This document shows, piece after piece, positions 54,033-58,307 of a stretch of 64,000 bases of DNA. The translations under genes and the position numbers were made by a program. The notes below the pieces were generated by a model. That model worked only from the letters and a program-made list of their open reading frames with translations. It was not told where the DNA came from and did not search any database. Each line of letters starts with the position of its first letter. Within the stretch, counting starts at the first letter, position 1. The DNA is from Isoalcanivorax indicus (GTDB taxonomy: Bacteria; Pseudomonadota; Gammaproteobacteria; Pseudomonadales; Alcanivoracaceae), in contig NZ_QGMP01000001.1 of NCBI RefSeq assembly GCF_003259185.1, forward strand, positions 1-64,000, given 5' to 3'.

Positions 54033-55180
54033 TGGCTGATCCCATCGTCGTCATCGGCAGCGGCCTGGCCGGCTTCAATCTGGTCAAGGAGCTGCGCAAG
54101 CTGGACAAGGACACGCCCATCGTCATGCTCACCGCTGACGACGGCCGCAATTACTCCAAGCCCATGCTCTCCACCGGCTTCACCAAGGGCAAGAGCGCCG
54201 ACGAACTGGCCATGGCGACGCCCGAGAAGACCGCCGAGCAGTTCAATGTCACCCTGCGCACCCACGTTACCGTGACCGGCATCGACCGCGACGGCCATGC
54301 GGTGCTGATCGGTGACGAACGCCTGCCCTACAGCAAGCTGGTGCTGGCCTGGGGCGCCGATGTGTTCCGCCCGCCGGTAGAGGGTGACGGCCTGGACAAG
54401 GTCTATACGGTCAATGATCTGGAAGACTATGGCCGCTTCCGCACAGCGGTAGACGGCGCAAAGACCATCCTGATTGTGGGCGGCGGCCTGATCGGCTGCG
54501 AGTTTGCCAATGACCTCACCAACGGCGGCTTCAAGGTGCATGTGGTGGAGCCGGTGGGCCGCTGCTTGCCGACCTTCCTGCCCGAGACGGCGTCGAAAGC
54601 GGTATCAGACGCACTGACCGGGCAAGGCGTGACCTTCCATTTCGGGCCTTTCGTGCAGCGCGTGGACGCGGCCGGTGACGGCGTGCGTGCGACCTTGTCT
54701 GATGGCAGCACTGTGGACGCCGACCGGGTCTTGTCCGCCGTGGGCTTGCGCCCGCGCATCGCCCTGGCCGAGCAGGCCGGGCTCAAGGTCAACCGGGGTA
54801 TCTGCACCGACCAGACCCTGCGCACCAGCGACCCGGATATTTATGCACTGGGCGACTGCGCCGAAGTGGAAGGCCATGTACTGTTGTACGTGCTGCCGCT
54901 GATGGCGGCGTCGCGCGCGCTGGCGCAGACGTTGGCGGGCAACGAGACTCCGGTAAGCTACGGCGTCATGCCGGTGACCATCAAGACCCCGGCGTGCCCG
55001 GTGGTATGCGTGGTACCGCCGCAGGGCATTGAGGGCGACTGGGACATCGAAGCCGACGGCCATAACGTGCGCGCTCTGTTCCGTGATGCTGACGGTCAGT
55101 TGCGCGGTTATGCGCTGACCGGCGAGGCGTGCAGCGAAAAAATGAAACTCAACAAGGAACTGCCGCCGCTGCTTGCCTGA
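54032..55180 (+). CDS. rubB: Rubredoxin reductase
   Basis: A 382-residue FAD- and NAD(P)H-dependent reductase. FAD motif IVVIGSGLAGFNLVKELRKL, the NAD motif ILIVGGGLIGCEFANDL and the second FAD motif DIYALGDCAEVEGH are present. It reduces the rubredoxin encoded directly upstream, and the pair is translationally coupled. It is similar to the Alcanivorax and Pseudomonas RubB rather than the longer AlkT fusion types. Supports alkane oxidation (inferred from the pair). Confidence 0.93.
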   Translation: MADPIVVIGSGLAGFNLVKELRKLDKDTPIVMLTADDGRNYSKPMLSTGFTKGKSADELAMATPEKTAEQFNVTLRTHVTVTGIDRDGHAVLIGDERLPYSKLVLAWGADVFRPPVEGDGLDKVYTVNDLEDYGRFRTAVDGAKTILIVGGGLIGCEFANDLTNGGFKVHVVEPVGRCLPTFLPETASKAVSDALTGQGVTFHFGPFVQRVDAAGDGVRATLSDGSTVDADRVLSAVGLRPRIALAEQAGLKVNRGICTDQTLRTSDPDIYALGDCAEVEGHVLLYVLPLMAASRALAQTLAGNETPVSYGVMPVTIKTPACPVVCVVPPQGIEGDWDIEADGHNVRALFRDADGQLRGYALTGEACSEKMKLNKELPPLLA

Positions 55181-55200
55181 ACCGGCGAAGGGAGAAGCAC

Positions 55201-55578
55201 ATGAAATTCTGGCTGGTACTGCTCGTTCTCGGCTGGCGCTTGCGCTGGCTTGCCTGGCGCAATGCGGAATTCCGCAAGCAGCTGGAAAACCGCAATGTGC
55301 TGATGCAGTGGCGCACCAAGGCGGGTTCGCCGGCGCGCTGGTTCCATTTTGAGCCGGGGCGTGTACGTGTGGGTGGTGGTATCCATCCGGCGCCGACGGT
55401 CACGCTCAGTTTTGCCGATGCGGCGTATGCGTTCGCGACGTTGCAGAGAGCGAGCAAAAACCAGATGGCGTTCATGGAAGGCATGCAGCAGGGCAAGATC
55501 CGTATCGAAGGCGATCCGGGTCAGCTGATGTGGTTCATGACCCTGATGAAGTTTATTGCGCCTGGCAAGAAGAAGTAG
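55201..55578 (+). CDS. SCP2-like sterol/lipid-binding domain protein
   Basis: A 125-residue protein from ATG 55201 with GAAGGGAGAAGC upstream. It has a hydrophobic start (WLVLLVLGWRLRWLAW) followed by an SCP2-like fold: RWFHFEPGRVRVGGGIHPAP, then TVTLSFADAAYAFATLQ and the late GKIRIEGDPGQLMWFMTLMKF. SCP2 domains bind sterols or fatty acyl chains. It follows rubB by 20 bases; a lipid-handling role in hydrocarbon metabolism is only a suggestion. Confidence 0.75.
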   Translation: MKFWLVLLVLGWRLRWLAWRNAEFRKQLENRNVLMQWRTKAGSPARWFHFEPGRVRVGGGIHPAPTVTLSFADAAYAFATLQRASKNQMAFMEGMQQGKIRIEGDPGQLMWFMTLMKFIAPGKKK

Positions 55579-55618
55579 CTTCTCGGTTTTTTTCCATTCT
55601 GTTTTTTGTGGTGGTTAT

Positions 55619-55737
55619 GGCCCTCGGGGGGCGGGTAAGGGTTTTCTGGACACGCCGTGAACCCATCCATGGGGGCTCTCGTTCGGCATCCATGCCTCTC
55701 GAAGGTCCAGAAAACCCTTACCCGCCCCCCGAGGGCC
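55619..55737. repeat. Long palindromic repeat 1 (32-base perfect arms)
   Basis: Arms at 55619-55650 (starting GGCCCTCGGGGGGCGGG) and 55706-55737 are exact inverted copies over 32 bases. The 55-base loop contains GTGAACCCATCCATGGGGGC and TCGTTCGGCATCC. The loop is clearly related to the loop of the repeat at 55931, in opposite orientation. No gene is seen here. Confidence 0.95.
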
Positions 55738-55791
55738 GTCACGCGCAGCCCGGTTAACAATTTCCAGCCAACCGAACGTTTCGTTCGCCCC

Positions 55792-55889
55792 GTAGGCTGG
55801 GCTGAGCGCAGCGAAGCCCGGCATCAAGCAGACTCTGCCACGAGCAAGACGTCAAGGTGCTGGGCTTCGCGCTGCTCAGCCCAGCCTAC
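55792..55889. repeat. Palindromic repeat 2 (GTAGGCTGGGCTGAGC type)
   Basis: Left arm 55792-55819 and right arm 55862-55889 are inverted copies of about 28 bases, differing only by a GCAGC/AGCGC swap inside. The GTAGGCTGGGCTGAGCG...GAAGCCC motif resembles repeats scattered in related genomes, and its core recurs in the hairpin at 43155. Confidence 0.85.
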
Positions 55890-55930
55890 ATGCTACGAAG
55901 TGCAGAACCGGAAGTTGGCATTGAACTGAG

Positions 55931-56041
55931 GCCTCGGTAAGGGGTAAGCCCTTCCAGAAGTGTGTGAGGCAGGAAGCCGAACGCAAGCCCCCAGGGATGG
56001 GTTTACGGCGGCTTCTGGAAGGGCTTACCCCTTGCCGAGGC
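55931..56041. repeat. Long palindromic repeat 3 (30-base arms)
   Basis: Arms 55931-55960 (GCCTCGGTAAGGGGTAAGCC then CTTCCAGAAG) and 56012-56041 are inverted copies with one difference, which gives a G-T pair. The 51-base loop, reversed, matches the loop of repeat 1 (AAACCCATCCCTGGGGGC and GCGTTCGGCTTCC). The arms of the two repeats differ from each other, yet each is self-complementary. Confidence 0.95.
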
Positions 56042-56079
56042 CGGGCTACGAAGCTCCAACGCCCTGGCGCGGACAACAT

Positions 56080-56115
56080 AAAAAAAGCCCCGACCTTGCG
56101 GCCGGGGCTTTTTTG
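56080..56115 (-). terminator. Rho-independent terminator of the repeat lipoprotein gene
   Basis: AAAAAAGCCCCG (56081-56092) faces CGGGGCTTTTTT (56103-56114), with T-runs on both strands, so it may act in both directions. It lies 24 bases past the stop codon of the lipoprotein gene. Confidence 0.93.
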
Positions 56116-56138
56116 TTTTTCCGGTGATCCGGTTGCCG

Positions 56139-58307
56139 TTACGGCAGGAAACCGAAGATCGGGCCCAGGATAGCGCCCAGGATCGGAATGTCCTCGATAC
56201 CGGAGGTGTCGCCGCCTTCCACGGCGCCGAGCAGCGTGCCCAGCACATCGCCCAGTACCGGGATGGCGCTGAGGCCATCGGTCACCGGCGCCAGCGCGTC
56301 GGTCAGCAGCGCCAGGCAGCTGGCCGGGTCAGCCGGGTCGCAGAAGTCGCCGAAGTCACCGCCGGGCAGGCCACCGTCGCCACCCGGGAAGTCCGGCAGT
56401 TCGCCGGACAGCAGGCCGGTGATCAGGTCACCCAGAACCGGAATCTCTTCCAGCAGACCGGTCAGCGGGGCCAGCAGGTCGGCCAGGCCAGCGAGGGCTT
56501 CGAGGCAGCTGGCCGGGTCGGCGGGATCACAGGCGTCGAAGCCGGGCAGCTCGGGGAAGCCGCCGTCACCGCCACCGGGGAAGCCGGGGAAGTCAGGCAC
56601 TTCACCTGCCAGCAGGCCGTTGACGATATCGCCGAGTACCGGGATCTGCTCCAGTGCGCCGGTCAGCGGGGCCAGCAGGTCGGTCAGGGCGCCGAGGCAG
56701 CTGGCCGGATCAGCCGGGTCACAGGCGTCGAAGCCCGGGAATTCCGGCAGGCCGCCGTCGCCACCACCTGGGAATTCTGGCAGCTCGCCGGACAGGATGC
56801 CGTTGACGATGTCACCCAGTACCGGGATCTGTTCCAGCGCGCCGGTCAGCGGGGCCAGCAGATCGGTGAGGGCCGCGAGGCAGCTCATCGGGTCAGCCGG
56901 GTCGCAGTCGCCGAAGCCGGGGAAGGCCGGCAGGTCGCCGCCATCGCCGCCGCCCGGGAATTCGGGCAGTTCGCCGGACAGGATGCCGTTGATGATGTCG
57001 CCCAGCACCGGCACGTTGTCGAGCAGGTCGTTCAGCGGCGCCAGCAGTTCGGTCAGGGCCGCCAGGCAGCTGGCCGGATCGGCCGGGTCACAGGCATCAC
57101 CGAAGCCGGGGAATTCCGGCAGGCCGCCGTCACCGCCGCCCGGCGGGAAGTCAGGCAGTTCGCCAGACAGCAGGGCATTGATGATGTCGCCGAGCACGGG
57201 TACTTCGCCGATGAGATCAGAGATCGGCGCCAGCAGTTCAGTCAGTGCGGCCAGGCAGCTCGCCGGGTCAGCCGGGTCGCAGTCGCCAAAGCCCGGGAAT
57301 TCGGGAATGCCGGGGCCGCCGTCGCCGGGCTCGCCATCACCGCCGCCGAGCAGGGCGGCCAGGATGTCACCCAGAACGGGGATGTCGCCGAGCAGGTCGG
57401 TGAGCGGCGCCAGGGCGTCGCCAGCCGCCAGCAGGCAGCTCAGCGGGTCCGCGCCTTCTTCGCACTGGTCGCCGATGCCGGGGATCTGGTCGAAGCCGGG
57501 GATGCCGTCAAAACCGCCACCGCCACCCGGGATAAAGGCGCCCAGGGTTTCGGTGATGCATTCGGCCGGGTCGAACTCGGGGGCAAAAGCGGCCACCGGG
57601 CAGACGGCTTCGGTGATCAGGTTCGGGCCGAGCAGCAATTCCTGGGCGTTGGCCAGGCTGCCACCGACTTCAGTCAGGCAGTCCACGGGCGTGGTCGGGC
57701 CGAGGGGGCCGAGGGCCGCCGTCGGGCACAACTCACCCAGAATGTCGACCAGCAGGGTCGGGCGCGGCGGCTGGAAGTCGCTGAAGAAATCCACGGCTTC
57801 AGCAAAGCAGCCTGCCGGATCAAATTCGCCGGCGTTGGCCATCATCGGACACAGCAGGGCGGTCAGCGGGTTGCTGCCACCGATCAGGTCCTGGATGTTC
57901 TGCAGGGTCTCTGTGGTTTCCATCAGGCAGGCCGGGCCGAAATCCAGCGGCAGGACGCTGATGCCTTCATCGCCCGCGCTGATCACGGAAAAGCCCTCAG
58001 CGGCGACGGGGCAGAAACGGGCCAGCAGGTCTGCATCGCCCGCGCCGATGCCCTGAAGCGCTTCGTTCTCACACGCGATGCGGTCGATCACGTCGCCAAT
58101 CGTGCCCAGTGATGCGGTGTTGGGGCAGAAAGACAGGGAAAATTCGTTGTTGGTATCAACGATGGTCAGGACCGGCTGTTCGCTGCCGCCGCCATTGCCA
58201 CCGTTGCCCGGTGCCGCCACGGGGTCGTTGTTGTTGCTGCCCCCACAGGCGGAAAGTATGAAAGCCAGAGTGGCCAGCAAGGCGCCTCTGGATAGCCATC
58301 CGTTCAT
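56139..58307 (-). CDS. Large lipoprotein with seven tandem Cys-containing repeats
   Basis: A 722-residue protein. The signal peptide ends LAFILSAC (Cys21), followed by a Gly/Asn linker. Residues about 45-280 contain degenerate CP-x-A ... DPA-x-C units. From about residue 283 to the end there are seven units of 61-66 residues, each starting C-DPADPASCLAALT, with LLAPL, IPVLGDIINGLLSGELPDFP and a Gly-rich linker ending PEFPGFGD. Each unit holds two Cys seven or so residues apart, so one disulfide per repeat is likely. The hydrophobic, Asp-poor helices suggest surface or envelope function. No family is recognised. Confidence 0.85.
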   Translation of the reverse strand: MNGWLSRGALLATLAFILSACGGSNNNDPVAAPGNGGNGGGSEQPVLTIVDTNNEFSLSFCPNTASLGTIGDVIDRIACENEALQGIGAGDADLLARFCPVAAEGFSVISAGDEGISVLPLDFGPACLMETTETLQNIQDLIGGSNPLTALLCPMMANAGEFDPAGCFAEAVDFFSDFQPPRPTLLVDILGELCPTAALGPLGPTTPVDCLTEVGGSLANAQELLLGPNLITEAVCPVAAFAPEFDPAECITETLGAFIPGGGGGFDGIPGFDQIPGIGDQCEEGADPLSCLLAAGDALAPLTDLLGDIPVLGDILAALLGGGDGEPGDGGPGIPEFPGFGDCDPADPASCLAALTELLAPISDLIGEVPVLGDIINALLSGELPDFPPGGGDGGLPEFPGFGDACDPADPASCLAALTELLAPLNDLLDNVPVLGDIINGILSGELPEFPGGGDGGDLPAFPGFGDCDPADPMSCLAALTDLLAPLTGALEQIPVLGDIVNGILSGELPEFPGGGDGGLPEFPGFDACDPADPASCLGALTDLLAPLTGALEQIPVLGDIVNGLLAGEVPDFPGFPGGGDGGFPELPGFDACDPADPASCLEALAGLADLLAPLTGLLEEIPVLGDLITGLLSGELPDFPGGDGGLPGGDFGDFCDPADPASCLALLTDALAPVTDGLSAIPVLGDVLGTLLGAVEGGDTSGIEDIPILGAILGPIFGFLP

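Follow-up and report, generated by a model that had tools for sequence, protein, structure and literature searches.

A dispersed family of palindromic repeats in Gammaproteobacteria with a fold that may act as a CsrA decoy

Introduction

What keeps two long palindromes paired when their arms differ and their loops are the same? The question is raised by a site in Isoalcanivorax indicus, in a stretch of 64,000 nucleotides that we refer to as the window and whose first letter is position 1. An earlier note on this DNA described two near-perfect palindromes with unrelated arms and homologous loops, and proposed either that the folded structure is under selection or that the arms are rebuilt by a copying mechanism. 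We report here that this either/or is partly supported, in that we found support for both of its halves. Our analysis also goes beyond the earlier note in three respects: both palindromes are members of a single large family, their loop consists of two hairpins, and these loop hairpins covary too.

Results and Discussion

Layout of the site

Three inverted repeats, A, M and B, sit between an ORF (approximately 55201-55578, plus strand) downstream of a rubredoxin reductase gene and a convergent gene of lipoprotein-like type (56139-58307, minus strand; Table 1). The lipoprotein-like ORF is itself built of repeats of about 186 nt. Palindrome A (55619-55737) pairs at 33 of 33 arm positions around a loop of 53 nt, and palindrome B (55930-56042) has 31 arm pairs with a single mismatch (T.G on the plus strand) around a loop of 51 nt. 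The near-perfect pairing recorded earlier therefore stands, but the arm lengths of 32 and 30 bases given with it are each one too short. The arms of A and B do differ, and the loops are homologous and in inverse orientation, as had been claimed (59-nt inverted match, 78%).

Table 1. Features of the A-B unit and its borders in the window.
Feature	Position	Strand	Basis or remark
Left edge motif of the A-B unit, CCATTCT	55594..55600	+	By eye, left of most of 37 A copies
Palindrome A, left arm, 33 nt	55619..55651	.	Inverted-repeat analysis
Palindrome A, match to covariance model R1, 89.4 bits	55638..55718	-	A is among the 39 model sequences
Palindrome A, loop, 53 nt, two hairpins on the sense strand	55652..55704	-	DNA fold and covariance-model match
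Palindrome A, hairpin 1 tip, CATGGATG on the minus strand (pattern CANGGANG)	55664..55671	-	Sequence, conservation
Palindrome A, hairpin 2 tip, CATGGATG on the minus strand	55687..55694	-	Sequence, conservation
Palindrome A, right arm, 33 nt	55705..55737	.	Inverted-repeat analysis
Repeat M, REP-like doublet of GTAG type, between A and B	55792..55889	.	Sequence
Palindrome B, left arm, 31 nt	55930..55960	.	Inverted-repeat analysis
Palindrome B, match to covariance model R1, 85.5 bits	55947..56025	+	Model search
Palindrome B, loop, 51 nt, two hairpins on the sense strand	55961..56011	+	DNA fold, RNA fold, model match
Palindrome B, hairpin 2 tip, CAGGAAG, i.e. A(N)GGA without N	55970..55976	+	Sequence
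Palindrome B, hairpin 1 tip, CAGGGATG (pattern CANGGANG)	55992..55999	+	Sequence, conservation
Palindrome B, right arm, 31 nt	56012..56042	.	Inverted-repeat analysis
Right edge motif of the A-B unit, GCTACGAAGC	56045..56054	+	Same or nearly so right of most of 16 B copies, by eye
Terminator hairpin between the A-B unit and the convergent lipoprotein-like gene	56081..56114	.	In G005 and G001 too; similar one in G003

Both palindromes fold far better than their dinucleotide shuffles, whether as DNA (z of -10.9 on the plus and -10.7 on the minus strand for A, -9.3 and -7.8 for B) or as RNA (-11.0 and -10.2 for A, -9.1 and -7.5 for B), and on each strand 0 of 200 shuffles folded as well. The minimum-energy RNA fold of B is the consensus fold; in that of A the register of hairpin 1 is shifted, and GGA remains in the loop. 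When the window was searched at E 1 with R1, the covariance model of the family, A and B were matched and nothing else. Repeat M is unrelated to them: it starts with GTAG, resembles a REP doublet and, among the other loci of this genome that were read, has a match of at least 45 nt only at L009. Remnants of M (GTAGGCTGGG) are seen in the spacers of L010 and L012. A simple scan of 55100-56400, confined to the sigma-70 type and to the window unit, found 0 promoter-like sites, and in the sequence no T run follows the stems of A and B.

A large family of mostly inverted pairs

A BLAST-type search revealed A- and B-like places throughout the I. indicus genome (G000; the other G numbers denote comparison genomes and the L numbers loci), 37 A and 16 B copies being read. 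A core pattern had 60 matches in this genome, against 0 for the reversed control, and was present in 12 of 12 genomes searched, all of them preselected as positive for A. The distribution of the family among relatives is patchy: A was matched in 19 of 57, and G002, G004 and G006, of the same genus, had no match. The nearest named genomes, judged by the gene neighbouring the A-B unit, are Alcanivorax, and the 80 named loci around that gene gave 3 R1 matches (two Alloalcanivorax, one uncultured Marinobacter). On the scale of the class, R1 had matches in 49 of 274 gammaproteobacterial genomes (own genome included), from 43 of 222 genera, and copy counts per genome in this sample are to be read as "at least", as they rest on up to 17 scored candidates each.

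Most units are inverted pairs of palindromes, made of A and B, of A and an inverted A, or of A and a third palindrome, C, and part of the copies are single palindromes. The unit edges are conserved around the inverted doublets. C palindromes score 38-45 bits with R1, where almost every intact A or B copy scores at least 77 bits. Their grouping with A and B is partly by construction, two C sequences being inside the model. At L230 (G008:C1:93800-96400) six palindromes form a tandem array with a spacing of about 227 nt. Several contigs in G000 (C2, C3, C6), G005, G022 and G038 start or stop in or beside a palindrome; breaks in the assemblies at these places are therefore likely, and the true copy numbers may be higher. 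An insert of about 77 nt, starting with GTGAG and ending with GGAG, occupies the inner-hairpin tip of three palindromes (the B copy of L017, at about 1281-1358, the C copy of L032 and the C of L246 in G005), and L199 (G038) and L207 (G040) carry other inserts, with ATCCAT hairpins of their own, in hairpin 1. Other small elements thus seem to favour the hairpin tips as a place of insertion.

A plasmid or phage origin of the family was considered and set aside: neither 72,556 plasmid records nor 50,697 phage records gave a blastn match to A, and the exact core pattern was found on 1 contig only in IMG/VR. In the chromosomal surroundings, the genes flanking 48 loci of G000 were convergent at 23, codirectional at 16, divergent at 3 and unassigned at 6, on gene calls made with a simple codon score, which at the window skipped the small ORF beside the unit. 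At least one gene end faces the unit at 39 of the 42 assigned loci, and in many units the distance from stop codon to unit start is 25-50 nt. By our own reading, 4 of 12 single-palindrome copies between codirectional genes are sense to these genes, and there is thus no orientation bias toward cis use in mRNA.

Covariation and the choice of strand

The covariance model and the search for compensatory changes that the earlier note had proposed both bear out a conserved fold. In 39 diverse copies (alignment A1; 44 of 88 copies were picked for diversity and 39 of these 44 aligned, five being left out by no stated rule), both partners have changed in 24 of 27 pairs, with a covariation score of 0.575 versus 0.204 for shuffles and at most 0.186 for slid partners; 0 of 500 shuffles reached it. 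Covariation thus goes beyond both kinds of control, as for structured RNA in general. A second alignment, A2, of 30 matches found with the model (read from 27 class-sample loci and one viral contig) again has 24 of 27 pairs changed on both sides, and 95.4% of its cells paired; being collected with the model from A1 and fitted to R1, it leans toward the model, and its conservation is partly by selection. The small inner hairpins covary as well (CCC/GGG to TACA/TGTA), and at the orthologous site L020/L264 an arm pair has gone from T-A to C-G by change on both sides. The earlier note had set random, pairing-breaking arm changes against its own reading, and this check did not overturn it: over the inner 24 pairs of 120 copies (those of 128 distinct copies whose arms reach 19 or more), Watson-Crick pairs make up 2796 of 2869, and 82 of the 120 copies are perfect.

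The 73 pairs that are not Watson-Crick are informative as to strand. Read on the ANGGAN strand, 46 are G.U and 9 are A.C (binomial test, p = 4e-7, an optimistic value, as copies within a genome are related). G008 contributes 14 of the 46 one-strand wobble pairs, and G.U still leads A.C by 32 to 8 without its copies. Among 28 of the 30 rows of A2, all of them copies that did not enter the model (one is from the viral contig and the others are from the class sample, two pairs are near-identical, and the own-genome copy L280 and a partial match, L233, are left out), the counts are 32 G.U and 7 A.C, or 20 and 7 beyond the modelled positions. The score by which arms were found is biased toward the opposite outcome, because it penalises wobble pairs of the other strand less. 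The strand picked by wobble is the strand with the GGA tips, and these are two separate observations. Judged by the one-strand excess of G.U, selection appears to have acted on one strand in its folded form, in agreement with the first half of the earlier proposal. RNA is the simplest reading of a strand-specific fold, with folded single-stranded DNA as the alternative.

Hairpin tips and other conserved bases

On the sense strand both inner hairpins end in CANGGANG, with both N free. A(N)GGA is the recognition motif of CsrA/RsmA (PMC4066749), and CsrA is described as a homodimer with generally paired sites (PMC4333381). In both hairpins of A2, each tip base (C, A, G, G, A, G) occurs in 29-30 of 30 rows, and the four N columns hold 0.65-0.75 bits; in hairpin 1 of A1, the A is found in 38 of 39 copies and GGA in 39 of 39. 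The first N is absent from hairpin 2 of some copies, B among them (AGGA). The stems around the tips vary between copies yet stay paired. Several A(N)GGA hairpin-loop sites on one strand, as in a CsrA-sequestering RNA, are thus found here as two per palindrome. In 23 columns of A2 a single base fills 29 or all 30 of the rows; 12 of these columns belong to the tips and 11 do not, the latter being mainly AGC...GCG and the TT.AC bulge of hairpin 1 (A2 columns 44-46 and 60-68). CsrA binding leaves the near-invariant AGC...GCG and TT.AC bulge unaccounted for.

We regard structure, strand choice and tips as well supported, and CsrA binding, which is predicted from sequence and fold, as the best-supported function.

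Turnover of arms and exchange between sites

The second half of the earlier proposal, that arms are rebuilt by copying, finds its support in orthologous sites. Sixteen of 20 copy-bearing loci of G005, chosen for holding copies, align by their flanks to copy-bearing loci of G000, and the window site is a 17th. Fifteen orthologous sites are readable in both genomes; by our own reading, the changes at 13 of them go past a single base and affect core, arms or partner, and those at the other two (L262/L023 and L272/L214) are single core bases only. Chimeric arms are seen in one G005 copy, L265. At the window site, G005 and G000 share the left edge and the A arms, but the core in G005 is another, and a C palindrome with an insert replaces M and B. 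G003 has no unit there (115 nt between the alignment blocks, versus 572 nt in G000 and G005). Similarly, G038 carries a pair between atpG and atpD (names read from the sequence), and its congener G057 is without the unit (58 versus 352 nt).

In G038, the same 52-nt loop recurs without change in 7 of the 21 copies read (arms of at least 19). Identity between the arms of these seven is 33% (range 12-62%; shuffled control 25%), yet each copy still forms a palindrome of 22-30 bp, 0-3 of its pairs being imperfect. Same-loop copies in G000 (65-92%) and G022 (79%) have mostly related arms. Among the 21 G038 copies the unrelated arms cluster at about 30 bp, often with GG at the start and GAC at the end, and several copies are flanked by GACC[..]TCAGTGCC and TGGCACTGA[..]GGTC. 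Such identical cores on unrelated arms provide a test case for the origin of near-perfect palindromes by new insertion, template switching or core exchange. Two other leads were tried and set aside. Copying of the arms from the target site found no support, as neither arm of the atpG-atpD pair is present at the unoccupied G057 site; with flanks only 81-82% identical, this is a weak test. Nor was a clean empty site for target duplications obtained, as the G005 site L256 is rearranged in G000 and divergence at the G003 site is too great to place the ends exactly. Dispersal and exchange between sites are well supported, and we read the units as probable old insertions, the contents of which would have been shuffled by ectopic copying.

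Relation to known RNAs and repeats

CsrA-sequestering sRNAs of the CsrB/RsmZ type are single promoter-driven RNAs with many CsrA sites. The A/B family resembles them in its multiple A(N)GGA hairpin loops and differs in having two sites per palindrome and tens of dispersed copies. It also resembles the TwoAYGGAY RNA (Rfam RF01731), in which an outer stem closes two hairpins with AYGGAY-type tips. This RNA is a predicted CsrA-binding candidate with tandem G.A pairs reported in one stem (PMC4333381), and was judged probably an RNA and probably not cis-regulatory (Weinberg et al. 2010, PMC2864571). By eye, a GA...GA pattern surrounds GGC/GCC in hairpin 2 of both window palindromes, and not in all aligned copies. 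As for AYGGAY terminal loops, A has AUGGAU twice, and B has AGGGAU and AGGAA, which fit only the wider A(N)GGA. The available text of both sources makes no mention of high copy number, inverted pairs, arm turnover or exchange between sites.

Ysr224 (Rfam RF02770), described in a review as temperature-responsive and among the commonest Rfam sRNAs in bacteria (PMC9029176), has the same two-hairpin loop sequence. The difference is that Rfam models the opposite strand, with TCC tips, so that possible CsrA sites are hidden in the family as named; Ysr224 may be annotated on the wrong strand. RF01731 and, on the opposite strand, RF02770 touch the repeat family but miss most of the copies tested. With a cut-off of 43 bits for RF01731, the own-genome copy C2:39312 passes (51 bits) and two C palindromes fall just below. 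Up to E 5, the listed Rfam matches include neither A nor B, and neither reaches the RF01731 cut-off. RF01731 attains 36.8 bits (below 43) at a single one of 20 class loci, where the R1 score is 75 or higher, and RF02770 matched 3 of the 20 below its cut-off. Matches to Rfam miRNA families lay below the cut-offs of these families and were taken to reflect long hairpins only. We rate the A-B repeat as a TwoAYGGAY-like RNA fold with predicted CsrA sites, probably spread as a paired palindromic repeat. In the available text of the literature on the core sequence, on TwoAYGGAY and on repeat and mobile-element combinations, the family is not described; a survey of Alcanivorax dieselolei lists 549 sRNAs and names 10 Rfam families, with TwoAYGGAY unmentioned in its main text (PMC9788540).

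The extragenic, dispersed, inverted palindrome doublets also recall REPINs and REP doublets with their RAYT transposases (PMC3116915). The differences are several: A and B measure 113-119 nt, versus 20-40 bp for REPs (PMC3733652); they lack the GTAG start and are thus not GTAG/CGTC-tagged short REPs, M being the one that has it; their arms can differ wholly between copies of the family, M being the REP-like part; and no linked RAYT was found, the lone Y1_Tnp gene having no R1 match beside it.

Alternative explanations

The palindromes could be non-autonomous mobile DNA of a REPIN or MITE type, lacking any RNA function and moved by a transposase that acts in trans and reads the folded single-stranded hairpins by their tips and bulge. 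We consider this rather unlikely. The explanation would account for dispersed copies that are mostly inverted doublets with conserved edges, for sites occupied in G000 and G005 but empty in G003, or occupied in G038 but empty in G057, and for the few copies between divergent genes (3 of 48 loci); recognition of folded DNA would moreover yield a strand-specific tolerance of G.T and explain the conserved bases outside the tips. The linked transposase that the earlier note had suggested looking for did not emerge, however: the sole Y1_Tnp-like gene found (L158, G000:C1:836342-836665) has no R1 match in its 3.3-kb locus, and no ORF is widely shared beside the copies. Before masking, the 25 most shared ORFs were only the reading frames of the element itself; with the elements masked, ORF pieces of at least 80 aa were common to at most 3 of 93 loci (flanks of about 1-1.5 kb), and the few shared pieces look like housekeeping genes. 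The scarcity of traces in plasmid, phage (no blastn match to A) and viral records (exact core on the single IMG/VR contig) also speaks against a mobile element. A pair of hairpins whose stems are unrelated and whose tips both read A(N)GGA, at times without the N, is what CsrA needs; no transposase is known to require it.

If instead the repeats were passive, template switching and gene conversion would keep the arms paired by arm-to-arm copying, without selection. This explanation draws strength from an inner stem more perfectly paired than an RNA stem seems to need (2796 of 2869 pairs) and from the chimeric arms of L265 and the orthologous-site differences, which point to copying; but copying alone gives no strand bias among mismatches, in conflict with 46 G.U to 9 A.C, and it leaves unexplained both the covariation of the small inner hairpins and the near-invariant A(N)GGA tips. 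As a full account it is, in our view, improbable. Still less probable is that the palindromes are stabilisers of mRNA 3' ends or transcription terminators in which the loop sequence is incidental: conservation is among the highest at the loop tips, where a stabilising stem would lead one to expect the reverse, and the stems of A and B lack a following T run and have a separate terminator adjoining the unit, although the position of many copies 25-50 nt past stop codons, and of the unit facing a gene end at 39 of 42 assigned loci, would suit such a role.

A putative CsrA decoy

The CsrA reading that we prefer holds that A and B are inverse-orientation members of a repeat dispersed in Gammaproteobacteria, that the fold is a putative CsrA decoy, and that its copies have been spread and shuffled; we see about an even chance that this is right as a whole. 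One strand of each palindrome would encode an RNA (or single-strand) fold in which a stem of about 30 bp closes a two-hairpin loop, each of the two small hairpins presumably exposing an A(N)GGA tip, the CsrA/RsmA recognition motif. The fold would be made by read-through transcription from neighbouring genes; given that most units consist of two palindromes in inverse orientation, transcription from either side would yield an RNA with one of them in sense. It may then bind one CsrA dimer via its two tips, and serve as one of many dispersed CsrA decoys or of many sites at mRNA 3' ends. A putative spreading machinery would disperse the copies, after which ectopic gene conversion would homogenise and shuffle them, and such conversion could explain why the arms can differ more between sites than the cores do.

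The gene for CsrA is present in G000, in 45 of 49 element-bearing genomes and in 235 of 274 overall. Among good genomes the difference is not significant (37 of 38 with the element versus 175 of 198 without, p = 0.14), and G252, which is 98% complete, has 9 R1 matches (of up to 17 scored candidates) and no csrA match. These figures speak against the CsrA reading, as do the lack of promoter-like sites around the window unit, the 11 conserved columns outside the tips, the missing orientation bias between codirectional genes, the shifted hairpin 1 in the RNA fold of A, the patchy distribution among relatives and the A. dieselolei survey in which TwoAYGGAY goes unmentioned. The wider form of the proposal, that these are mobile decoys of CsrA/RsmA throughout the class, lying in opposite orientation, with arms of about 30 bp remade or swapped by copying at each site and a CsrA-binding core homogenised between sites, so that one genome could bear the same core on unrelated, almost perfect stems, we put forward as a tentative possibility.

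If the decoy reading is true, both TwoAYGGAY and Ysr224, whose Rfam model describes the other strand, would be linked to one repeat. It would also offer a clear test of whether repeats in bacteria can jointly serve as a dispersed protein sponge. With about 60 palindromes, a genome would hold about 120 CsrA sites, many of them beside gene ends, and the number of CsrA sites in many Gammaproteobacteria would be set in part by a repeat family, beyond RNAs of the RsmX/Y/Z type.
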